Positions 17,793 to 36,357 of a DNA stretch of 36,357 nucleotides are shown in pieces. Source of the DNA: an uncultured Bacteroidia bacterium. Lineage in GTDB: Bacteria; Bacteroidota; Bacteroidia; Bacteroidales; UBA932. The DNA is taken from positions 1 to 36,357 of the forward strand of contig CACZKE010000031.1 in the NCBI GenBank assembly GCA_902781705.1, in the 5' to 3' direction. Both the position numbers and the translations under genes were made by a program. Under the pieces are notes generated by a model. The model was not told the DNA's origin. It ran no database searches and was given only the letters and a program-made list of their open reading frames with translations. How positions within the stretch are numbered: position 1 is the first letter of the stretch; each line of letters begins with the position of its first letter.

Positions 17793-17876
17793 GCGCGGAT
17801 GGCGGAATTGGTAGACGCGCTACTCTCAGGAGGTAGTGTCCGAAAGGACGTGTCAGTTCGACTCTGATTTCGCGCA
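17793..17876 (+). tRNA. tRNA-Leu (anticodon CAG)
   Basis: An 84-nt class II tRNA. Acceptor stem GCGCGGA pairs with TTCGCGC (17869-17875, one G-U), discriminator A. The anticodon stem CTACT/GGTAG closes the loop CTCAGGA, giving anticodon CAG. The long variable arm (GTCCGAAAGGAC) and T-loop TTCGACT are typical. CCA is not encoded. Confidence 0.96.
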
Positions 17877-25718: not shown

Positions 25719-26299
25719 TCTTTTACCTTACAAGTGACCAGAACCTGTTGGCAGGTTTGCAAAGGGGACTCTGGGATTTTCAAATGGCACCTTCCTTCAA
25801 TTAGCAGCACCTCTGCCAATGGCCTCTGCCGGGGGATCTTTCAGAATTAATTGATAATAAGTGACTTCCATATCCGTTTGCGGCAAAGTATTCCTTAAAA
25901 AGAGCATTTTGCCGCCGTAGGGTTTGTAACTTATTGAAAACCAAAATGTTGTTTGGTTGTGTCTGGCGAGGGGGTTCGGAGAGGGTGTGATATTGAAGTG
26001 CGGAGCTTGTTCGTCAAATCGACAAATCGGGCAAAGAGGTAGTTATTTGCCCGAAAGCATTTTTGCACAAACCGTGAAAACTTAAAGAGCACCCATCGGC
26101 CCTGTGTGCAGTATATCATCGATTCGCGTTCTTTAACCACTTGAAGATAGCTGGCTAAAGACCGCCCATCGGCCTTCTGCGCACTTCCAGGGCAGGTCCG
26201 CGCGCTTCAAGTTTTCATCGGTCGTAAAGGTGGACGGGGCGCTCGGCTGGAATATCTTGATGAAGGCCTTTTCCGTATCTGCTTCTCGTGAGTAGTACA
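25719..26299. other. Gene-free region before the HipBA island
   Basis: About 580 bases without a convincing gene. It holds a perfect 9-bp hairpin (TCGGGCAAA 26027-26035 with TTTGCCCGA 26046-26054) and an imperfect 73-bp tandem duplication: 27-nt blocks at 26084-26110 and 26157-26183 share AAAGA..-CCCATCGGCC-.-TG-GCA. Minus-strand frames across both blocks read similar short peptides (CTQGRWVLF and CAEGRWAVF). These could be remnants of small genes or a dispersed element; I cannot assign them. Confidence 0.5.
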
Positions 26300-26390: not shown

Positions 26391-26702
26391 ATGGAATATC
26401 GGCTCGATAATTACGCTCGCCAACCGGAGATACTGATGATGCGCCTGGCGGAGAATTGCAAGGCACGGAGGCTGGACAAGGGACTCAGCCGACGGAGCTT
26501 GTCAGAGCAGACCGGCATCCCGGCGCCGACCATCGAACGTTTCGAACGGACCGGTCGGATTTCCTTGGAATCCTTCTGTCGGCTCGTGATAGAATTCGAT
26601 TATTTTGACGAGCTGGGAGCCGTGCTCGGACGGACGAAGTATTCCACGGCTGAAGACCTGGAACAGATCAACCGGAACAGGGACAGGAGGAAAGGCCGAT
26701 GA
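26391..26702 (+). CDS. HipB-like antitoxin, XRE-family repressor
   Basis: A 103-residue protein with one helix-turn-helix (about 32-53: LSRRSLSEQTGIPAPTIERF). It overlaps the downstream hipA by 4 nt (ATGA). In HipBA systems this protein neutralises the kinase toxin and represses the operon. The C-terminus is basic (NRNRDRRKGR). Palindromes upstream fit autoregulation. Confidence 0.88.
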   Translation: MEYRLDNYARQPEILMMRLAENCKARRLDKGLSRRSLSEQTGIPAPTIERFERTGRISLESFCRLVIEFDYFDELGAVLGRTKYSTAEDLEQINRNRDRRKGR

Positions 26703-27829
26703 TACCGCAAGTCAGGAAAGTGCAAGTCTTGTACAGGGATACCCCTGTCGGAATCCTTCAGACGGACCCGTCCACGGGTGTCTGTGTCTTTGAATATGAC
26801 CGCAGCTGGTTAGCGGACGGATTCTCCCTGTCACCCACCGAACTGCCCCTGCAGGGTGGACTTATCTATGCCGATCGGGAAAAATTCAACGGCGCATTCG
26901 CCCTGTTCGAGGACAGCCTTCCGGATGGTTACGGACTGCTTCTGCTGGAGCGGATCCTCCGTCGGGAAGGGACTTCACTCCGCGAACTGGATCCACTGCA
27001 GCGTCTCTCCGTCATCGGAGCCTCCGGCATGGGTGCATTGACCTATCTTCCGGTTATGCCGGAATTCGAGAAACAACGGGAGCTGGTCGGTCAGGATATG
27101 CTCGACACCCTGCAGGAAGACGCACTCCGGGTCCTGTCGGAGAAATCCGAAACTGACGTGTCCATGCTTTACTACAGCAGCGCCAATTCCGGTGGCGCCC
27201 GGCCCAAAGCGGTGATGGTCGATGAGGACGGAACGCATTGGCTCGTCAAGTTCCGGCATATTTACGACCCCGTGGACATCGGTCAGACCGAGTTCCTGTA
27301 TATGCAGACGGCCCGCGAATGCGGTATTACCGTCCCTCGGATCCGGCTTGTCCGGGACCGGTATTTTGCCGCCGAACGCTTCGACATCGGCCCGGATGGG
27401 AAACGCATCCACATGGCGACAGCTGCCGCCCTGCTTAAGACCGATTTTCGGAATCAGGATGTGGATTACACGAATCTTCTTGCCCTCACGGGTTTCTTGA
27501 CCCAGGAACCGGCGCAGGTGGAAGAGATGTTTCGCCGGATGGTCTTCAATCTCATCGCCGTGAACAAGGACGACCACGCGAAGAACTTCACTTTCCTCTG
27601 CCGGGAAGGCCAATGGGAGCTCGCTCCGGCCTATGACCTGACTTATTCCCCCCAGGGAAGCAACGGCGAACATGCCACATCCCTCTTTTACCATGGAAAT
27701 CCCGGCCTGGACCTGGTCGTGAAGGCCGGAACCGGTATACGCATCCCTCGCGCCCGCTGCTTGGAAATCGTCCACACGGTGGAAACCATCTGCGCCGACC
27801 GGCTTCCCGTCATCCGAAGACTGCAGTAA
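26699..27829 (+). CDS. hipA: HipA-like serine/threonine kinase toxin
   Basis: A 376-residue HipA-family kinase. The N-terminal subdomain (1-100) with GLIYADREKFNGAFALFEDSLPDGYG matches the HipA coupling domain. The kinase part has the Gly-rich loop SGGARPK (164-170), the ATP-binding Lys in HWLVKF, the catalytic loop NKDDHAKN (289-296) and a metal-binding Asp313 in PAYDLTY. E. coli HipA phosphorylates glutamyl-tRNA synthetase; the target here is unknown. The length is shorter than E. coli HipA (440). The last 11 codons form one copy of a 54-bp direct repeat seen again beside the integrase. Confidence 0.9.
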   Translation: MIPQVRKVQVLYRDTPVGILQTDPSTGVCVFEYDRSWLADGFSLSPTELPLQGGLIYADREKFNGAFALFEDSLPDGYGLLLLERILRREGTSLRELDPLQRLSVIGASGMGALTYLPVMPEFEKQRELVGQDMLDTLQEDALRVLSEKSETDVSMLYYSSANSGGARPKAVMVDEDGTHWLVKFRHIYDPVDIGQTEFLYMQTARECGITVPRIRLVRDRYFAAERFDIGPDGKRIHMATAAALLKTDFRNQDVDYTNLLALTGFLTQEPAQVEEMFRRMVFNLIAVNKDDHAKNFTFLCREGQWELAPAYDLTYSPQGSNGEHATSLFYHGNPGLDLVVKAGTGIRIPRARCLEIVHTVETICADRLPVIRRLQ

Positions 27830-27850
27830 GTCGCTATCAGTCCACCATCC
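27797..27850. repeat. Direct repeat flanking the inserted cassette, left copy
   Basis: It starts at GACCGGCTT within the hipA 3' end, passes the stop codon and ends in CAGTCCACCA-T-CC. Compared with 30804-30857, 44 of 54 bases agree without gaps. Most differences are transitions or silent in the hipA frame. Confidence 0.8.
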
Positions 27851-27878
27851 CAGTCATCCAAGGACCAAAATGCAGCCA

Positions 27879-27910
27879 TTTGCATGTTCAATCTGAATCG
27901 ATTATCTTTA
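27879..27910 (+). promoter_or_regulatory. Promoter of the thioredoxin-like gene
   Basis: TTTG (27879-27882), a 20-bp spacer CATGTTCAATCTGAATCGAT and TATCTTTA (27903-27910). The spacer is nearly the same as in the hipB and phd promoters. A palindrome AAGTACTT follows at 27912-27919. Confidence 0.75.
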
Positions 27911-27952
27911 CAAGTACTTATTACAACCAGCGTAATTGATTTCAAGAACGTT

Positions 27953-28438
27953 ATGAAAAAGATCCTCGTCATCCTCGCAGCCATGCTTTTCATGCTGTCC
28001 ATGAGTTCCAGACTGGGTGCCCAGGAGGCCCAGACCCATCCGGTCCTCGTTGCAAACCGTTCCGGCAGCGTTTCCCTGGTCTATCATCCCCTGAAGAACT
28101 ATGTGGGCAAGGGACAGCCTACGCTCTTCTTTTTCTGGGCTTCCCAATATGATGACTGCCGGGAGGAAGCAGCCTTTCTCCAGACCCTCCATCAGCAATA
28201 CAAGGGTCTGACGGTCCTGGGCGTCCCCATCGACGGTGAAATCGACGCCACGACGGCTGCCATGAAAGAACTTCGGCTGACCTTCCCCCAATTCTTCGAC
28301 ATGGACGACCTCCTGTATGACCGCTACGGAGTAGATGGCATCCCCTACACGGTCCTGCTGAACCCCAGCGGTGAAGTCATTGCAGAGAACTTGCACGGCG
28401 ACGACCTCGTGAAGGCCGTGGACGAGTGCTTGCGGTAA
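27953..28438 (+). CDS. Secreted thioredoxin-fold protein with degenerate active site
   Basis: A 161-residue protein with a signal peptide (cleavage after SRLGAQ, residue 24) and a TlpA/ResA-like thioredoxin fold: PTLFFFWAS, FPQFFDMDDLLYDRYGVDGI and the cis-proline region GIPYTVLLNPSGEV. The usual WCxxC motif is replaced by SQYDDC, leaving only Cys69; the first cysteine position is Tyr66. It therefore cannot cycle a CxxC disulfide as ordinary TlpA does and may act as a binding or monothiol protein. The ATG at 27953 starts the signal peptide; the frame extends upstream over the promoter. It is the first gene of the segment between the two direct repeats. Confidence 0.82.
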   Translation: MKKILVILAAMLFMLSMSSRLGAQEAQTHPVLVANRSGSVSLVYHPLKNYVGKGQPTLFFFWASQYDDCREEAAFLQTLHQQYKGLTVLGVPIDGEIDATTAAMKELRLTFPQFFDMDDLLYDRYGVDGIPYTVLLNPSGEVIAENLHGDDLVKAVDECLR

Positions 28439-28466
28439 TCCGTGCAAGTGGGATCCATTAAACAAG

Positions 28467-28520
28467 ATTATGCATTATACATAATTTAACTTGCGTAATC
28501 AAAATATTTCCGTATCTTTG
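28467..28520 (+). promoter_or_regulatory. Promoter and palindrome of the ATPase gene
   Basis: TTG (28491-28493), a 19-bp spacer and TATCTTTG (28513-28520). Upstream lies the inverted repeat ATTATG-N7-CATAAT (28467-28485), close in sequence to the palindrome at the hipB start. Confidence 0.75.
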
Positions 28521-28541
28521 CCCATAGTAAGAACCACGACT

Positions 28542-29726
28542 ATGGCCCAGGCAAACACTCCTTTGAACCCTTTTTTCCTATCCCCGAAAATTCCGGATAA
28601 GTATTTCTGTGACAGACGGGAAGAGACACGCACATTGTCCCGGCTCGTAACCAACGGAAGCAACGTTCTTTTGATGTCTCCCCGCAGGATGGGGAAGTCC
28701 GGTCTGATCCACCATCTGTTTGAACTTCCTGAAATCAAGAAGGCATATCATACGTTCTTCATCGACATCTATGAGACTTCTTCCCTGGAGGAGTTTGTCC
28801 AGAAACTGGGCCAGGAGATTGTTGGAAAACTGTCGCGGAGAGGGATGGGACCCCTGCTCGCTTTTTTGCGGTCACTGGTGTCGCTCCGGGGAGTCTTTTC
28901 CCTGGACCCCTCTTCCGGAATGCCGTCCTTTTCCGTGGGTATCGGGGAAATAACCCGCCCGGAAGCAACGCTGGACGAGATTTTCTCCTACCTGGAGAAA
29001 GCCGATAAGCGCTGCATTGTCGCCATCGACGAGTTCCAGAAGGTGGCTGACTACGAACAAAAGAACGTTGAGGCTGTTCTCCGGAGCCGGATCCAGCTCC
29101 TTCGCAATACGACCTTTATCTTTTCCGGCAGCGAACGATCCGTGCTCGGGCAAATGTTCGGTTCCGCGTCAAGGCCCTTCTATCAGAGCACATCCTCCCT
29201 GAGTCTCGGCCCCATCGACAAGGACGTGTACGCCGATTTCGCCGTATCACTGTTTGCCGATGCCGGAAAGACACTCGAACGGGAAGCGGTTCTGGACCTG
29301 TATGACCTGGTTCAGGGCTATACTTATTATCTGCAAAGGTCCATGAACGCGGCTTACGCGCTCCTGCCGGATGGGAAACCGTGCGATCGCACGTTCCTTT
29401 TTGAGAGGGTCGATGAAATCCTGACGGCCCAAACTGATTCATACCAGGACATCCTGTCCGCCCTGACTCCCAACCAGCGTGCACTCCTTGCCGCCATAGC
29501 CCTGGAAGGAGTCGCCTCCAATATTACCTCCACGGAGTTTATCCGACGCCATGGACTCGGGCCCATCAGCTCCGTCCAGACCGCTGCGCGCGCACTCATG
29601 AAACGTCAGTTCCTGACGCGGGATCCGCAAAAGAGATACTGCCTGGACGATAAATTCCTGGAACTTTGGCTTGCCCGCCCTTTCGGCATAACCCCGAAAA
29701 TCCGGCTCGGGCAGAACCGGCGATAA
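28542..29726 (+). CDS. AAA-type ATPase, ATPase_2 / archaeal-type family
   Basis: A 394-residue STAND-like ATPase. Walker A is SPRRMGKS (46-53), Walker B IVAIDEFQ (159-165; Asp163 and Glu164), and TFIFSGSERSVLGQMF looks like the sensor region. A C-terminal winged-helix part (about 295-385: LTPNQRALLAAIALEGVAS, KRYCLDDKFLELWLARPFG) is typical of the group also known from mobile islands in Bacteroidales. Roles in these proteins are unproven. The ATG at 28542 is used because the conserved NPFFLSPKIP start follows it and it lies downstream of the -7 box. Confidence 0.85.
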   Translation: MAQANTPLNPFFLSPKIPDKYFCDRREETRTLSRLVTNGSNVLLMSPRRMGKSGLIHHLFELPEIKKAYHTFFIDIYETSSLEEFVQKLGQEIVGKLSRRGMGPLLAFLRSLVSLRGVFSLDPSSGMPSFSVGIGEITRPEATLDEIFSYLEKADKRCIVAIDEFQKVADYEQKNVEAVLRSRIQLLRNTTFIFSGSERSVLGQMFGSASRPFYQSTSSLSLGPIDKDVYADFAVSLFADAGKTLEREAVLDLYDLVQGYTYYLQRSMNAAYALLPDGKPCDRTFLFERVDEILTAQTDSYQDILSALTPNQRALLAAIALEGVASNITSTEFIRRHGLGPISSVQTAARALMKRQFLTRDPQKRYCLDDKFLELWLARPFGITPKIRLGQNRR

Positions 29727-29740
29727 GTCCTTCCGCTCCG

Positions 29741-29792
29741 CTTGCATATTCAATTTGAATCGCTTAACTTTGCGTGTACATAATTACGTACA
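29741..29792 (+). promoter_or_regulatory. Promoter and palindrome of the phd-toxin operon
   Basis: CTTG (29741-29744), a 20-bp spacer CATATTCAATTTGAATCGCT and TAACTTTG (29765-29772), then the imperfect palindrome TGTACATAATTACGTACA (29775-29792). The spacer itself contains the dyad ATTCAAT-TTGAAT. Phd proteins repress their own operons, so the palindrome is a candidate operator. Confidence 0.75.
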
Positions 29793-29795
29793 TTT

Positions 29796-30047
29796 ATGAA
29801 GACAACCAGTGTAACCGATTTCAGGAACAATATGAAACGCTATTTGGATGCCGTTATCTTCGATTCCGACAGCGTTGTCATCAATCGTGGCAATACCGGT
29901 GCTGTACTTATTTCTTTGGAAGAGTACAACGCCATCAAGGGGACGGAATCGATCCTGTCCTCTGACCGGATGACCCGTTCCATTCGCGATGGCCTGGAAG
30001 ACATTTCGCGGGGTGAGGTTGAGGAAGTAGATGTCGATGCTTTATGA
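29796..30047 (+). CDS. Phd/YefM-family antitoxin
   Basis: An 83-residue protein with the Phd/YefM N-terminal fold (TSVTDFRNNMKRYLDAV, VVINRGNTGAVLISLEEYNA) that dimerises and binds operator DNA. The C-terminal half (SSDRMTRSIRDGLEDISRGE) is the toxin-neutralising tail. It overlaps the toxin gene by 4 nt. Confidence 0.92.
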   Translation: MKTTSVTDFRNNMKRYLDAVIFDSDSVVINRGNTGAVLISLEEYNAIKGTESILSSDRMTRSIRDGLEDISRGEVEEVDVDAL

Positions 30048-30778
30048 AACTGTTGTTTTCCAAAAGTGCGTCACAGGCGTATTCTGTCCTGAAAGCGGAT
30101 GCACCTGACTTGGCCGAAAAGGTCAGGACGATCCTGAAGGACGCCCTGCTCCATCCCGACTCCGGTGCCGGAGCGCCGACTATGCTTGAGGGTGCTTATA
30201 GTGGACTATGGCAACGCGTGTATGCACCGGGGCAGGTCATTGTGTACTCGTTCAATGACGAAACCCTGACAATCGTTTCCATCGGAGCCAAGGTAGATGC
30301 CTTGAAGAGAATCCGCCTGGAATCCTATACGGAGCAGGAGGAGCAATCTGTCATGAAACAGATGATGGCCAACCGGGGAAAGGAGGGTGAGCCCAAAGTG
30401 GGGATTTTCTGGTACAACAGAGCGACAAACCAATTGTTCGGTGTGGTATCACACCGAATCAGCGATTACGGCAAGGCCAACGCATCGGACGGCCGCATTA
30501 CGTGTTCCGAGATGCATGAAGATGTCTGGAAAAAAGAGTACCGCATACAGCGGTACCAGCACGGAGGCCAGGGACCGTTCATCGGTGCTTATCAGGACAA
30601 ACCCCGCGGTCGGATCTTCTATCACATGGACGATGGATCCTATGAAGTGGCTGTTGGAAAGTGGATTGAAGAATACCCCCAGGCCTATGAGCTGATTCTG
30701 AAAGAATTCAATCTTCCTCCTGAGAATACAAAAGTCAAGTATGCCATTCATTGGGACATTGGTCAATCGTGGCGCTGA
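30044..30778 (+). CDS. RelE/YoeB-like toxin fused to an unknown C-terminal domain
   Basis: A 244-residue protein. Residues 1-90 match the YoeB/Txe fold (MKLLFSKSASQAYSVLKADA, LEGAYSGLWQRVY, VIVYSFNDETLTIVSIGAK), an mRNA endonuclease class normally about 85 residues long and paired with YefM. The usual C-terminal His-Tyr is lacking and the arginine expected before LVY is a Gln, so activity is doubtful. Residues about 115-244 form a separate domain (VGIFWYNRATNQLFGVVSHR, RIFYHMDDGSYEVAVGKWI, KYAIHWDIGQSW) that I cannot name. No frameshift is needed to join the two. The antitoxin overlaps its start. Confidence 0.8.
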   Translation: MKLLFSKSASQAYSVLKADAPDLAEKVRTILKDALLHPDSGAGAPTMLEGAYSGLWQRVYAPGQVIVYSFNDETLTIVSIGAKVDALKRIRLESYTEQEEQSVMKQMMANRGKEGEPKVGIFWYNRATNQLFGVVSHRISDYGKANASDGRITCSEMHEDVWKKEYRIQRYQHGGQGPFIGAYQDKPRGRIFYHMDDGSYEVAVGKWIEEYPQAYELILKEFNLPPENTKVKYAIHWDIGQSWR

Positions 30779-30798
30779 ATCGCAACCGTCAGTAGACT

Positions 30799-30836
30799 GC
30801 CACGACCGGCTTTCCGTTATCCGGAGACTGCATTGA
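30799..30836 (+). pseudogene. Second hipA 3'-end remnant
   Basis: The frame TGC-CAC-GAC onward reads CHDRLSVIRRLH then stop, against CADRLPVIRRLQ-stop at the end of the intact hipA. Only about 12 codons remain. They sit 20 nt after the toxin gene and 4 nt before the integrase stop, so the remnant is the hipA half of the right-hand direct repeat. Confidence 0.7.
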
Positions 30837-30857
30837 CACCCTACCAGTCCACCACCC
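30804..30857. repeat. Direct repeat flanking the inserted cassette, right copy
   Basis: Partner of 27797-27850, in the same orientation and 3,007 bp away. On the minus strand it encodes the last residues of the integrase (VVDW, stop at 30841-30843), so the repeat spans the ends of two convergent genes. Confidence 0.8.
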
Positions 30858-31638
30858 TGTCCACGAGGCGGCTCTGTTCCAGGGTGGAGCGCTGGAGGTA
30901 GATGCGGGTCGTGTCCACGGATTCGTGGCCCATCAGGTCGGCCAGCAGGACCAGGTCGGTGTTCTTGGAAAGGAAGTTCTTGGCGAACAAGTGCCTGAAA
31001 GAATGCGGATGGACGACCGTCGGGTCGATTCCGTATTTCTCCGCCAACTTCTTGAGGTTCTGCGCGATACCGCGCGGAGTTATCTTGCTTCCGTACCGGT
31101 TGACAAACAGGTATCCGGTATCCCGGTCGATCCATGTCAGGAGTTCCGTCCGCAACCTGACCGGCAGGTAGATCCGTCGGATTTTCCCGCCTTTCGAGTA
31201 GATGTCGTACCAGCCCGTTCGGACATGCTCAGCCTTGAGCTGGACCAGTTCGCTGATCCGGGCTCCGGTCGCCGCCAGGGTCCATACGATGAAATACCAC
31301 CGCAGGTCCTTTTCGCGCCGGAGCCGCTTCTTGAAAAAAACGTAATCCTCGTTACTGATTACATGCTCCAGAAACGAGGATTTGGGAAGTTTGACCGTCT
31401 TGATTTTCAGGTCATTCCGGCCGATGAATTCCAGGTATTTGTTGATGCCCCGTATGCGCAGGTTTACGCTCTTGGGCCTGTACCGTTCCACCAGGACACC
31501 CTTGTACTTGAGCAGGTTGTCCTTGTTCAACGCACTGTAATGTGCATAGTAATCCTGTACCGCGTACCGGTAGGCAACGATTGAGTTGGCAGCGTAGTTT
31601 TCCATCCTAAGCTGCCGTTCGAACGCATTGGTGTTCAT
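30841..31638 (-). CDS. Tyrosine recombinase (phage-integrase family)
   Basis: A 265-residue site-specific recombinase. The N-terminal SAM-like core-binding domain (1-90) is followed by a catalytic domain with every active residue in place: Arg127 (TGARISEL), Lys149 or Lys152 (SKGGK), His212 and Arg215 (HSFRH), His238 (MGHES) and nucleophile Tyr247 (RIYLQRS). It is of XerC/D size. A TATCTTTA box on the minus strand at 31669-31676 could be its -7 element. Its stop codon lies inside the right-hand direct repeat, so it is the obvious candidate for recombining the two repeats. Confidence 0.93.
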   Translation of the reverse strand: MNTNAFERQLRMENYAANSIVAYRYAVQDYYAHYSALNKDNLLKYKGVLVERYRPKSVNLRIRGINKYLEFIGRNDLKIKTVKLPKSSFLEHVISNEDYVFFKKRLRREKDLRWYFIVWTLAATGARISELVQLKAEHVRTGWYDIYSKGGKIRRIYLPVRLRTELLTWIDRDTGYLFVNRYGSKITPRGIAQNLKKLAEKYGIDPTVVHPHSFRHLFAKNFLSKNTDLVLLADLMGHESVDTTRIYLQRSTLEQSRLVDRVVDW

Positions 31639-31845: not shown

Positions 31846-34263
31846 TTATTTAGACTTGAAAATCGTCTTGGAGCTCTTGTAGTGCTCTTCGCGGGCACCC
31901 TCACCTTCCAAGGTCTGGAAGTGGTTGATGGTCACGGCCTCGGCGTGCTTGACAATCGGATCGCCAGCCGCATTCACGGTCCTGGGCTGATTGTGGAACC
32001 TGAACGGATTCAACTCGGAATCCGAGGTGGTTTCACGAGTGGACTCGCCGGTAAGCTCATAGGCCCAACCCCAGTCATCTTCAACCACCATATACACCCA
32101 ACCCGGATCCAAGCCATAGAGTGTCTTGAGAACACCGGCATTATCAGCTCCCTTATTGGTGAGAATTACCTTGGACCAGTCATCCCAGCCGATACCTTCC
32201 AGGTAGTCCATCGGATCGTTTTGATCAAGTTTTCCGTCCTGACTATCGAAGTCATGGAGATCAGGAAGCGGTTTGCCGATGGCGTTGTACAGCCAGATCG
32301 GATAAGCAGTGACTGTGGTAGTCTCTTCAGTTGTGGGGTTACCGGATTCGTCAACAGCATAATACAAGGAGTTACCATCGGCGTCTCTTTTGGGTTTCGG
32401 CCGAACTCTGAACACCTGGAAGGTTGCACTCTCACCAGTGCGAAGACCGTCCTTCTGGATCTTGATAAGTACAGGCAGCGGGGTATGAGGAACGTCATAC
32501 TGATTCACTCTACGGTAAATGGGATTACCATCACCATCGAGTTTCGGCGTAACACCGTCCTCTTCGAACTCCTGGACATAGACACCCGAATCAGGATGGT
32601 TGGTCGCCGTACCGTCACCACCTGTAGCCTCGTCATTCGCCTTAACCTTGAATTCGATGATCAGCTTCTTGCCGGCCCAATACTTTTCAGAACCGGAACG
32701 ATAACGCTCGCCGACCCAGTTGCCGGGAGTGATGGTAAACTGTGTCTCGGGATCGACTACATCGGCCTTTGTATAGTCGAAGCCAGTCACCATCAATTGC
32801 TGATGCTGCTCACCCGTGGAAGTTGTAACAGTCGTGATTTCATAACCAACACCAGTTGCTACCTCAGGATCCTCCCATCCAAGACCATCGCTCGTGACAT
32901 CAGCCACTTTAATCGTGATTCCCGCAGCATCGCCGGTAGGCAGGATGAAACTGTTGGAGACGACGTCACGAACCTGGGTCGACGCACCGGCGGTAGCATC
33001 GGCTGCGCCAGAGGCGTGGGCGACAGCCTCGAAGATCTCATCCAAATCAGCACCGGAGGCATTCTGATAGTAACCGTTGTCCCCGCCGCCGGAACCCGCG
33101 GCGTTCCAGCCCGTAGCATTCGGATAATTCGACGAAGTCCAATTCATATAATTCCGAATGTTATCCGTTTCCTCATCGAAAACGCCAATGGTAAAGACGG
33201 TGGCCTTAAAATCATCCTTAATATCCTTTGCCCAAGCAATGGTGCGACCGGCCACACCCGTGTCAAAAGTGTTCTCATAGGTAGGCGAACCATCAGTAAA
33301 CAGAACGACCACTTTATTGCTCTCACGATTCTTGATTGAATCCTGATTCAACAGGTACCAGGCTTTTGTCATACCAAAATCAGAGGCGGTAGCACCAGCG
33401 GGATCAATATCATTAACACCTAAGGCGGTACCGACACCCATCACACTGTTTACTCCAGCGGTTGTACTGACATCCGTGAAACCAACAAGAACTTCAGTGG
33501 CATTATAACCACCCGAAAAATGATTGCCAGGATTAAGAACGTCGCGACCAGTCGCATTTGCAGGATTGTTCGAAGTACTCTGTACAGTGCCGTTGCTATT
33601 GACAAATTGATTCATCGCATACTTCACGACAGCGATTTGGTTTGTAAGCGGGGTATCGCGTTCATTCTCTTTACTGTCGTAATTCGCATTGTGGTTGACG
33701 GTATTGACGAAAGTCTGCACCGCAGTCTTGAGGGCGTCTATTTTGCTCTGCGAACTAACTACTGTGCGAGTATAAAGTGTTCCGCTAAAGAAGGTTACAT
33801 TATTTCCAACACGATTCGGCCGATCTCTAGTCGCTCCGGCCGCAGTGAGATACCAAGTAGTGCCATCAACAGAGAAAGAGACTCTATTACCCCTGTTGTT
33901 ATTATCAATGGAAACTTTATAATAGTTACCATCAGTATGAAGATAATAACGAGTATAATTACCATAGTTATTATATGTCCAGTCTCGTGTCGTCCCAGAA
34001 TAGGAATAAGTTGAAATGCTTTCTTCCATGGAACCAGAAACATCCAGCACCAGGACAATGTCAACAGGAGTGGCGTTCTCGGTAACGGTAGATTTACCCG
34101 TCGCAAAAGACTCGAGGGAAATCGTATAGTAGCCGTTTACAGGCCCCGTCACCGTCTTGGAAGTCTTCATGCCGCCTTCTTCGTGATAGGTTTGCGCATT
34201 CAAGGCAAGGGAGGAAGCCAGCAAAGCAATCCCGAACGCTATATATTTAAAAGTATTCTTCAT
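31846..34263 (-). CDS. Secreted VWA-domain surface protein
   Basis: An 805-residue protein with a signal peptide (cleavage near LALNAQ, residue 24). After a short strand region (SKTVTGPVNGYYTISLESFA) comes a von Willebrand A domain with the metal-site motif DVSGSM (74-79) and VVVLFTDGSP, interrupted by a Tyr/Asn-rich insertion (about 85-170). Beta-sandwich regions follow to the C-terminus. No LPxTG or T9SS tail is visible. In Porphyromonas the VWA protein Mfa5 decorates Mfa1 fimbriae; the fimbrillin-like gene just upstream supports an equivalent tip or shaft role. An ATG 12 nt upstream (34275) is also possible. Confidence 0.82.
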   Translation of the reverse strand: MKNTFKYIAFGIALLASSLALNAQTYHEEGGMKTSKTVTGPVNGYYTISLESFATGKSTVTENATPVDIVLVLDVSGSMEESISTYSYSGTTRDWTYNNYGNYTRYYLHTDGNYYKVSIDNNNRGNRVSFSVDGTTWYLTAAGATRDRPNRVGNNVTFFSGTLYTRTVVSSQSKIDALKTAVQTFVNTVNHNANYDSKENERDTPLTNQIAVVKYAMNQFVNSNGTVQSTSNNPANATGRDVLNPGNHFSGGYNATEVLVGFTDVSTTAGVNSVMGVGTALGVNDIDPAGATASDFGMTKAWYLLNQDSIKNRESNKVVVLFTDGSPTYENTFDTGVAGRTIAWAKDIKDDFKATVFTIGVFDEETDNIRNYMNWTSSNYPNATGWNAAGSGGGDNGYYQNASGADLDEIFEAVAHASGAADATAGASTQVRDVVSNSFILPTGDAAGITIKVADVTSDGLGWEDPEVATGVGYEITTVTTSTGEQHQQLMVTGFDYTKADVVDPETQFTITPGNWVGERYRSGSEKYWAGKKLIIEFKVKANDEATGGDGTATNHPDSGVYVQEFEEDGVTPKLDGDGNPIYRRVNQYDVPHTPLPVLIKIQKDGLRTGESATFQVFRVRPKPKRDADGNSLYYAVDESGNPTTEETTTVTAYPIWLYNAIGKPLPDLHDFDSQDGKLDQNDPMDYLEGIGWDDWSKVILTNKGADNAGVLKTLYGLDPGWVYMVVEDDWGWAYELTGESTRETTSDSELNPFRFHNQPRTVNAAGDPIVKHAEAVTINHFQTLEGEGAREEHYKSSKTIFKSK

Positions 34264-34306
34264 GGTATAGTTCATTAATATGTTTTGTACCGATTGGAAT
34301 TGTCAT

Positions 34307-36073
34307 TTACTTCGCCTTGATTTTCTTGCCCACGGCATAAGACCAAGCATCCCAGCAGGTCGCGAATTCAGTACCATCCGGTTTTGTCGTGGGGATAGCC
34401 TGAACGACAACCTCCATTACCAGGTGCACGCCCACAGCCTGCTGACGGGCGGTCTGATTGGCAACAGGAAGATAAATGGCCGGAATCATGCTTTCATCCA
34501 ACTCATAGTGCTGGAAGAGCGCATCAGTACCGGACAACTGCTGACCGGCGCCAATTACCTGATCATAGTAGAAGTAACCACCCGTACCTTTCTTCCAATG
34601 GGAAGAGGCTAAAGGACGACCTCCCGGGAATGTTGAATCGAAACCCGCGGCGTATGTAGGGTCTTCCCGGTACCATGGCGTAACCATCGTGTCGTTGTTG
34701 GGATCGTCAGTCGTATATCCAACCAGGATCATAGGATTATTTGGATTAGCAGCCTTGTCCTCAGCAGACTTCCAGCCATACCAGTTACCGATGACCATGA
34801 TGCGGACATACTCGTCCACGTTGCCAGTGTTGGTCACGTGGAGACTGTCCTTCGTCAGATTCGTCATCTTGTCGAAGATCTCGACGTCCACATCGAACGG
34901 CTTCAGGGTGTAGGTGCGGAGCTGGCCGGCCTTCCACTCGGTGAAGGTCTTCTCGGCAGATTCCCCTTCGCCGGTTGTCTTCGTCACCAATTTGCCAAAC
35001 TCAATGACGTGGGGGACCTCCGTTCCGTTGGGGGTGTCCGGGGTCTTCACCAGGAAGGTGATCTCCAGCGTGACGCTCTCGTCGATCTGCTGCGGGATGA
35101 ACCAGAAGGTAAAGGAGCCGTCCTCGTCGTTGATGTTATGGTCGGCGGCGGCACTGGTCCAGGAAGTTCCGTCATATTTGGAATCAGAACCGTACGAAAT
35201 TGTCCCGTCGGGGTTGTCTGCTCCAGCAGAAGGAACATACGTAGGGATGATGCTGCTGAAATCCATGGTAAAGGTCGCCATATTGTCGAGACCTTCCCAT
35301 GCCACCTTGTTCTTGGACGTGCCCTCGGCAACCGGGGTGACTGTGCAGACACCGTGGGACTTGAGGTTCTTGAACGTGACGCTCTTGATGATGGTCTTGG
35401 TGGAGCCGTCATTCGTGTGTCCGTTGCGGAACTTCACGCCGGTGAGCGCGTGGTACATCGTAACGGGGGCGCCGTTCGGAAGATAGCCGTCATGCTTCTT
35501 CTTGCTCACCGCGGTGTGCGAGAACAGGAGGTCCTGCTGCGCTGTGCCGCTGGTAGGGGAATCGAACGTGAAGGTAATCTGCTGGTCGGCATAGTCCAAC
35601 TCGGAAACGCCGGTAGCCTGGGCGGGCATGCTGAAATAGAAGTCAACCGGGGTCGTCTCGTCCGGCCACGGGTCAACGGAACCGTAGTTGTGCCAGTAGC
35701 GCCAGCCACCGTCGACCATATTCTCGTCCATCCGCTCGAAAATGGCCTCACCGAAACCCTTGGAATCACCGTACACGCCCATCGTCTTGTAAATCTCACC
35801 GACGTTGAACGTGTAGGCCGGGACACCCCTCGTGGCGGGGGCGGCGTAATCCATCTCCTCGATGGTCTCCTCCAGGCAGACCTGGCTGTCGAGCTTGATC
35901 GTCATGCCCGGCTTCGGGGCCATAGTGACAGCGGACCGGGTGGCGGCACTCTGCAGGGAGAAGGCAATGTCATCCTTACCAAGCGGAGTAGCATCCTTGA
36001 AATCCTTCTCCTTCTCGCAGGAGGCCAGCGTAACGGCAGCAAGCGCCGCAATCACGAAGTAGATTCTTTTCAT
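34307..36073 (-). CDS. Fimbrillin-family lipoprotein with TasA-like C-terminal part
   Basis: A 588-residue lipoprotein with lipobox LASC (Cys19). Residues about 20-395 follow the Mfa-like fimbrillin plan: PATRG, an arginine site of the type cut during pilus assembly, VYGDSKGFGE, PVDFYFSMPA and HALTGVKFRNGH. The last 190 residues change character: SLHVTNTGNVDEYVRIMVIG, then GGYFYYDQVIGAGQQL and DALFQHYEL, a pattern that recalls TasA/camelysin fibre proteins. It is probably exported, lipidated and polymerised on the surface. It lies 43 nt upstream of the VWA gene. Confidence 0.75.
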   Translation of the reverse strand: MKRIYFVIAALAAVTLASCEKEKDFKDATPLGKDDIAFSLQSAATRSAVTMAPKPGMTIKLDSQVCLEETIEEMDYAAPATRGVPAYTFNVGEIYKTMGVYGDSKGFGEAIFERMDENMVDGGWRYWHNYGSVDPWPDETTPVDFYFSMPAQATGVSELDYADQQITFTFDSPTSGTAQQDLLFSHTAVSKKKHDGYLPNGAPVTMYHALTGVKFRNGHTNDGSTKTIIKSVTFKNLKSHGVCTVTPVAEGTSKNKVAWEGLDNMATFTMDFSSIIPTYVPSAGADNPDGTISYGSDSKYDGTSWTSAAADHNINDEDGSFTFWFIPQQIDESVTLEITFLVKTPDTPNGTEVPHVIEFGKLVTKTTGEGESAEKTFTEWKAGQLRTYTLKPFDVDVEIFDKMTNLTKDSLHVTNTGNVDEYVRIMVIGNWYGWKSAEDKAANPNNPMILVGYTTDDPNNDTMVTPWYREDPTYAAGFDSTFPGGRPLASSHWKKGTGGYFYYDQVIGAGQQLSGTDALFQHYELDESMIPAIYLPVANQTARQQAVGVHLVMEVVVQAIPTTKPDGTEFATCWDAWSYAVGKKIKAK

Positions 36074-36324: not shown

Positions 36325-36353
36325 TAAAACTACGTTATTTCTTATAATGCCAA
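36325..36353 (-). promoter_or_regulatory. Promoter of the fimbrillin-VWA operon
   Basis: On the minus strand TTG (36351-36353), an 18-bp spacer and TAGTTTTA (36325-36332), a near match to TTTG-N19-TAnnTTTG, 33 nt before the first ATG. Confidence 0.6.
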
Positions 36354-36357
36354 TTAT

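Follow-up and report, generated by a model that had tools for sequence, protein, structure and literature searches.

Inversion at fimbrial and hsdS loci is well documented. Among streptococcal recombinases, PsrA offers the closest comparison for the locus considered here: deletion of psrA in pneumococci abolishes the 15-bp IR1 inversion (PMC4948785). In Bacteroidales, operons for surface fibres that have inverted-repeat switches along with tyrosine recombinases have been described (PMC12632263) and profiled (PMC11892184). A locus with features of both systems, which also carries type II toxin-antitoxin (TA) modules of the HipBA and Phd/YefM-YoeB families, occupies one end of a 36,357-nucleotide stretch of DNA from an uncultured Bacteroidia bacterium (GenBank assembly GCA_902781705.1), hereafter the window, which is one whole contig (CACZKE010000031.1, contig C31) of a draft genome of 43 contigs. 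On balance it is considered probable, by a modest measure, that a TA block of two modules underwent duplication around resident genes, its copies then decaying in a reciprocal manner, next to a PsrA-type switch that serves pilus-like operons.

The recombinase of the window (30841-31638, minus strand; Pfam Phage_integrase) is 54% identical over its full length (143 of 263 residues) to an annotated streptococcal PsrA (WP_000651186.1, Streptococcus dysgalactiae; locus L185) and of the same length (265 amino acids). It is accordingly classed as a PsrA-type DNA invertase, with a predicted inversion activity like that of PsrA in another setting. The annotated PsrA relative adjoins an hsdS gene, whereas the genes identified around the window recombinase are TA, thioredoxin-like, ATPase, von Willebrand A (vWA)-like and fimbrillin-like genes, with no hsdS gene among them. 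Relatives were sought at a limit of 1e-60 in samples of 200 and then 400 genomes of the genus, of which 11 and 20 respectively gave a match (own genome included), and also in GTDB contigs, which gave 47 loci. The closest other full-length recombinase among the 400 genomes is 59% identical, and a C-terminal fragment in genome G126 is 71% identical; no closer relative sharing this locus emerged from a search at the tighter limit of 1e-95, whose 298 relatives from 119 genera included no new genome. Neighbouring genes were read by tblastn of the window proteins against the recombinase loci in overlapping sets of 57 and 62, the latter omitting the four weakest GTDB loci (L059-L062) that are present in the former, and many of these stretches end early at contig ends. 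Inverted repeats were read in 64 entries, the window included, which amount to 60 distinct sequences, the recombinase stretch being identical in four pairs. A phage or plasmid origin was rejected, the recombinase matching 5 of 50,697 phage records and 20 of 72,556 plasmid records at 1e-20, with best matches all below 60% identity; tRNA-linked insertion was likewise rejected, the two tRNA genes found (at 17793 and 20563) being far from the recombinase.

The inverted repeats of the PsrA locus hold GATAACTCTCCTTAT and TTATGAGAAGTT, which resemble the core and the arm of a dyad found with the relatives of the window recombinase. Within approximately 6-7 kb of the recombinase 3' end, 38 of the 64 entries possess an exact inverted repeat of at least 18 nt (34 with arms more than 200 bp apart). 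A complete ATAA-N6-TTAT core lies in inverted repeats of at least 18 nt with arms more than 200 bp apart in 13 entries, representing 12 loci (L016, L020, L021, L023, L024, L040, L045, L051, L057, L063, L072 and L164, with L063 entered twice), compared with 1, 0, 1 and 0 of the 64 entries for four control cores rearranged from the same letters. At adhesin loci the dyad is about 30 bp long, approximately AACTTCnnATAATGnCnRTTATnnGAAGTT, and sits upstream of a short leader gene and a pilin-like operon: L063 has three armed copies and L072 an inverted pair, with further dyads in L070 and L184 and a variant form in L170. Inverted repeats are present by the recombinase in L063, L072 and L170, and in L072 and L170 the recombinase sits between two divergent operons, with inverted dyads on either side of it. 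L063 also contains a second copy of the recombinase gene (480-1103 of that locus), 5'-truncated and, as read by eye, seemingly fused to the start of a leader-peptide gene within a dyad-flanked segment. A strict pattern (core plus one arm) was matched by 4 of 200 genomes, all of them recombinase carriers, by 0 of 189 non-carriers and never by a reversed control; it was drawn from three of its four matches (G003, G023 and G126), G142 being the sole independent one, and the result chiefly shows that the strict site is missing from the 189 genomes that have no recombinase. In the part of the open PMC literature that was covered, neither this dyad nor a PsrA-type enzyme at fimbrial operons of Cryptobacteroides is mentioned, although this does not prove absence.

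In the window, a dyad of this kind lies at the contig end, which falls within the dyad, at its core (ATAATGCCAATTAT; 36344-36357, plus strand), upstream of two genes that lead back toward the recombinase. These encode a fimbrillin-like lipoprotein (34307-36073, minus strand), so named by resemblance and context, with homologues by the recombinase in L063, L070 and L072 and by the dyad in L184, no Pfam match and, in its first 25 residues only, a sub-threshold match to a lipoprotein family; and a vWA-like surface protein (31846-34275, minus strand; VWA just under the Pfam cut-off, 22.9 versus 23.8 bits; no NCBIfam or PDB match), which is a probable pilus tip or adhesin and has homologues as neighbours of the recombinase in the same three loci (3 of 62 for each gene). 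A core pattern derived from the window plus three relatives matches the genome of the window exactly at four places, and its reversed control at none. The 14 bases ATAATGCCAATTAT recur on the opposite strand at positions 85-98 of contig C4, which starts 84 bp before them; this new place has both arms (TTCC/GGAA) and is followed downstream by a leader gene and by genes for a lipoprotein, a tip adhesin of the FimD type (217.6 bits against an NCBIfam cut-off of 170) and a third protein. Two other core matches (C4:3680 and C20:14561), which lie inside long reading frames and have no arms, were rejected as sites and taken as chance. If C4 follows C31 on the chromosome, as is presumed, the two dyads would be inverted and the two operons divergent, as in L072 and L170. 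The window itself contains no exact inverted repeat of at least 18 nt near the recombinase, its contig ending within one dyad. The most likely substrate of the recombinase is the dyad upstream of the fimbrillin/vWA operon together with its inverted partner at the start of C4. Inversion of the segment between these dyads would choose which adhesin operon is transcribed. The locus would resemble the invertible promoters known from surface and fimbrial genes of Bacteroidales in possessing a probable surface-fibre operon, an inverted-repeat dyad and a tyrosine recombinase, and it differs from that of PsrA in that the recombinase is by fimbrillin-like and vWA-like genes instead of hsdS and the dyad is upstream of operons, so that the enzyme would switch promoters rather than shuffle coding sequence.

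On the other side of the recombinase are the TA modules, in each of which toxin and antitoxin domains are found in adjacent genes. The hipA toxin kinase gene (26699-27829, plus strand; Pfam HipA_C, 5.5e-45, and Couple_hipA, 2.5e-18) has an intact reading frame and is preceded by a gene for a HipB-like antitoxin (26391-26702, plus strand) with Pfam helix-turn-helix matches below cut-off; a hipB homologue is 5' of hipA in all 23 of the 23 related hipA loci (for example 39% identical in L095 and 27% in L096). Upstream of hipB, short direct and inverted repeats (28 nt at 82%, 30 nt at 77%) occupy 26075-26217. The second module comprises a Phd/YefM antitoxin (29796-30047, plus strand; Pfam PhdYeFM_antitox) and a YoeB-like toxin (30044-30778, plus strand; Pfam YoeB_toxin over residues 5-80 of 244) with a C-terminal extension of about 160 amino acids; seven loci (L147-L153) match this extension only (34-39% identity) in open frames of 157-204 amino acids. 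Apart from the extension, the modules share the Pfam domains of typical HipBA and Phd/YefM-YoeB systems, from which they differ in that they read as the remains of a duplicated and reciprocally decayed block. The adjacency of TA genes to a PsrA-type recombinase (30841-31638) also recalls the TA system SpxA1-TenA, which, by the title of PMC11709252, regulates PsrA-driven epigenetic variations in pneumococci.

Two nested direct repeats suggest such a history. The first-pass annotation of the window had reported a 54-bp direct repeat (27797-27850 and 30804-30857) with 44 of 54 bases equal, which is exactly what is found. The ungapped repeat, here called J, extends over 27790-27850 and 30797-30857 with 49 of 61 bases equal and 12 differing, and a gapped match continues to 27855 and 30861, so that J-left (27790-27855) comprises the hipA 3' end and a decayed integrase tail, and J-right (30797-30861) a remnant of the hipA tail and the recombinase 3' end. 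Its local alignment score is 65, which none of 1000 dinucleotide shuffles, the measure used for all repeats here, reaches (best 29); elsewhere in the window J-left scores no higher than 23, and local alignment reveals no third copy in the window. More than half of J is hipA coding sequence, and the part outside hipA (27834-27855 and 30841-30861), taken alone, is a modest signal just beyond the shuffles (score 27, best shuffle 24). As had also been stated, the right copy encodes a HipA tail (CHDRLSVIRRLH and a stop) as well as the recombinase 3' end. The recombinase tail is intact on the right, where it ends in VVDW, and decayed on the left. Since each copy has a hipA tail and an integrase tail, one hipA/integrase junction has been duplicated, and the proposal that the two genes once ended against each other is supported. 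The further statement that differences between the copies are mainly silent or conservative does not hold: 6 of the 13 hipA codons compared differ, with three replacements (A/H, P/S and Q/H), two silent changes and one change of stop to stop. With 49 of 61 bases identical and 3 of 12 residues replaced, the copies of J are not the near-identical repeats of attachment sites.

The second repeat, P, was absent from the first-pass annotation. Its intact right copy (29742-29837, plus strand) comprises the phd promoter and first codons, and its left copy (27880-27958, plus strand) is what remains of the phd promoter and of codons 1-13, fused to the start codon of a thioredoxin-like gene. The alignment score of P is 54 (best of 1000 shuffles 28), with 25 of 29 promoter bases and 30 of 37 further bases identical, the gapped middle being excluded. 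P differs at 11 of 66 compared bases and J at 12 of 61, a similar degree of divergence that fits a single event, short of proof. The sequence ATGAAA is common to phd (codons 13-14) and the start of the thioredoxin-like gene, and the thioredoxin-like gene of L063 begins ATGAAACG, which matches phd at codons 13-15. A third repeat, as a promoter common to hipB, phd and the thioredoxin-like gene, was rejected, the match being restricted to the promoter region (scores 30 and 29, best shuffle 28, with 0 of 1000 reaching them). The phd repeat nested between the copies of J points to duplication and partial deletion of a TA block.

The genes between the repeats encode a thioredoxin/AhpC-like protein (27953-28438, plus strand; Pfam AhpC-TSA) and an AAA protein of the ATPase_2 family (28542-29726, plus strand; Pfam ATPase_2). 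The former is present at the recombinase locus in 3 of 62 loci (L063, L068 and L072) and the latter in 2 of 62 (L068 and L070, 74% and 70% identical); the ATPase gene of L068 is convergent and overlapping with the recombinase gene, and that of L070 adjoins a vWA-like gene. Upstream, typA and a DUF177-like gene are found in the window, L068 and L072. The TA modules are distributed differently. hipA is found around the recombinase in none of the 57 and none of the 62 loci, some of them ended by contig ends, and phd and yoeB in none of the 62; a hipB-like gene of 36% identity lies about 9.5 kb from the recombinase in L036. Relatives of hipA and yoeB were sought in 200 genomes (E limits 1e-60 and 1e-15) and found in 24 and 26 respectively, own genome counted in both, at sites elsewhere, and ten wider neighbourhoods of such relatives (five of hipA and five of yoeB, L187-L196) contain no recombinase, thioredoxin-like, ATPase, vWA or fimbrillin-like gene; in an eleventh wider stretch (L186), hipB is about 550 bp from an ATPase gene of 43% identity. 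Because hipA and yoeB occur elsewhere while the thioredoxin-like and ATPase genes occur at the locus in relatives, the TA modules look like newcomers and the supposed cargo like residents, on the basis of four sister genomes. ATPase_2 genes are common in the genus (53 of 200 genomes at 1e-80, own included, several with multiple copies). CxxC is the motif of classical disulfide oxidoreductases; the thioredoxin-like protein has no CxxC (WASQYDDC), and its L068 homologue has no cysteine there, so it is probably not an enzyme of that kind. Some phd-yoeB relatives are flanked by terminal inverted repeats (GGCTATCCGCAATATG...; L187:7053-8162, L188:7427-8537 and L194:1006-1018, where the repeat is seen at the right end only). 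Beyond these repeats L188 has an 8-bp direct repeat (CAAAAGAA), and none is seen in L187; such relatives are possibly transposon-borne TA modules.

The favored history would begin with the arrival by the recombinase of a block containing phd-yoeB and hipBA, with hipA ending against the recombinase 3' end, which is the junction J. Duplication of the block would have left copies flanking the resident thioredoxin-like and ATPase genes. The left copy would have kept hipBA and lost phd-yoeB apart from the phd start, probably by a short-homology deletion at ATGAAA from phd codons 13-14 to the thioredoxin-like start, and the right copy would have kept phd-yoeB and lost hipBA apart from the hipA tail. 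The J repeats are thus best read as ordinary scars of a duplicated TA block and not as attachment sites.

Several observations weigh against this history or against the switch beside it. The order of the left copy (hipBA-J-phd') is permuted relative to that of the right (phd-yoeB-hipA'-J), for which simple tandem duplication is insufficient; extra steps or a circularly permuted copy are therefore required, and the order of steps given above is tentative for the same reason. No exact inverted repeat of at least 18 nt is near the recombinase in 26 of the 64 entries, the window among them; the strict site is missing from 7 of the 11 recombinase carriers, including the genome of the window; and in G142, the sole independent strict match, the dyad and the recombinase are on different contigs. 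Just four other genomes (L063, L070, L072 and L170) show adhesin genes next to the recombinase, the adjacency of C31 and C4 is presumed, and the window recombinase, unlike those of L072 and L170, is at the 3' end of the vWA gene, outside the presumed invertible segment. The window locus has no hsdS gene, and it is at hsdS that PsrA is known to act. Finally, J carries a good half-site of the dyad (scores 8.9 in J-left and 9.1 in J-right), a level reached by 1.3% and 1.1% respectively of 8687 background windows of 61 bp.

The permuted order and the divergence of approximately 20% would be accounted for with fewer local steps if the left flank (hipBA-J-phd') had been acquired, through horizontal transfer or homologous recombination, from a related locus whose version of the same TA block was ordered differently. 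This is the main rival, and relatives of hipA and yoeB are indeed scattered in the genus; no such donor is found, however, in the hipA and yoeB loci read in 200 genomes or by the recombinase in 400 genomes, and the alternative is judged rather unlikely. The first-pass annotation had instead proposed that the recombinase integrates a circular cassette of thioredoxin-like, ATPase and TA genes at the hipA/integrase junction, which would be duplicated as attL and attR. That both copies of J hold the same junction, and that the half-site in J resembles one arm of the adhesin-locus dyad, would suit such an element. Against it, the thioredoxin-like and ATPase genes appear resident in the sister genomes, 20% of bases differ between the copies of J, J lacks the full dyad (in a position weight matrix scan of the 36,328 window positions its best scores rank 281 and 976), and the nearest characterized relative, PsrA, inverts DNA (PMC4948785). 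A single-junction or empty-site allele, or other cargo, was sought in the relatives; hipA being by the recombinase in none of the 57 and 62 loci read, some of them truncated at contig ends, no such allele and no other cargo was found. The cassette is consequently thought quite improbable, and J, for which the scan gave a half-site only, was rejected as an attachment site. The half-site evidence is weak, being post hoc, taken from copies that are not independent and falling in hipA codons, and the odds of some link between recombinase and J through it are low. It is very unlikely that a secondary, half-matching site in the hipA 3' end also serves the PsrA-type invertase, which would thereby capture and rearrange TA modules next to the switch it controls and so act as a rare cassette-capture enzyme. 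An integron-like array, with J as an attC-like site and the TA modules as cassettes, is the least credible of these proposals: the TA genes adjoin the recombinase with repeats at module ends, and the best NCBIfam match is the XerA/integron-integrase model, but that match is below its cut-off (137.7 versus 220 bits), as is that to the integron integrase model TIGR02249 (53.8 versus 265 bits), J folds no better than shuffles on either strand (z from -1.07 to 0.64 in four folds), the window has just the two copies of J, and hipA coding sequence makes up most of each.

The reading of a duplicated and decayed TA block beside a PsrA-type switch replaces a false lead, that of an integron-like or gene-3'-end cassette, with a testable one, namely PsrA-type invertases that seem to have one dyad core common to hsdS loci and Bacteroidales fimbrial switches. 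The switch is of greater interest than the J repeats. The TA scars would be a small example of reciprocal loss after duplication of a two-module TA block. The dyad motif would aid the prediction of phase-variable adhesin operons in draft genomes, including those at sites where contigs break.

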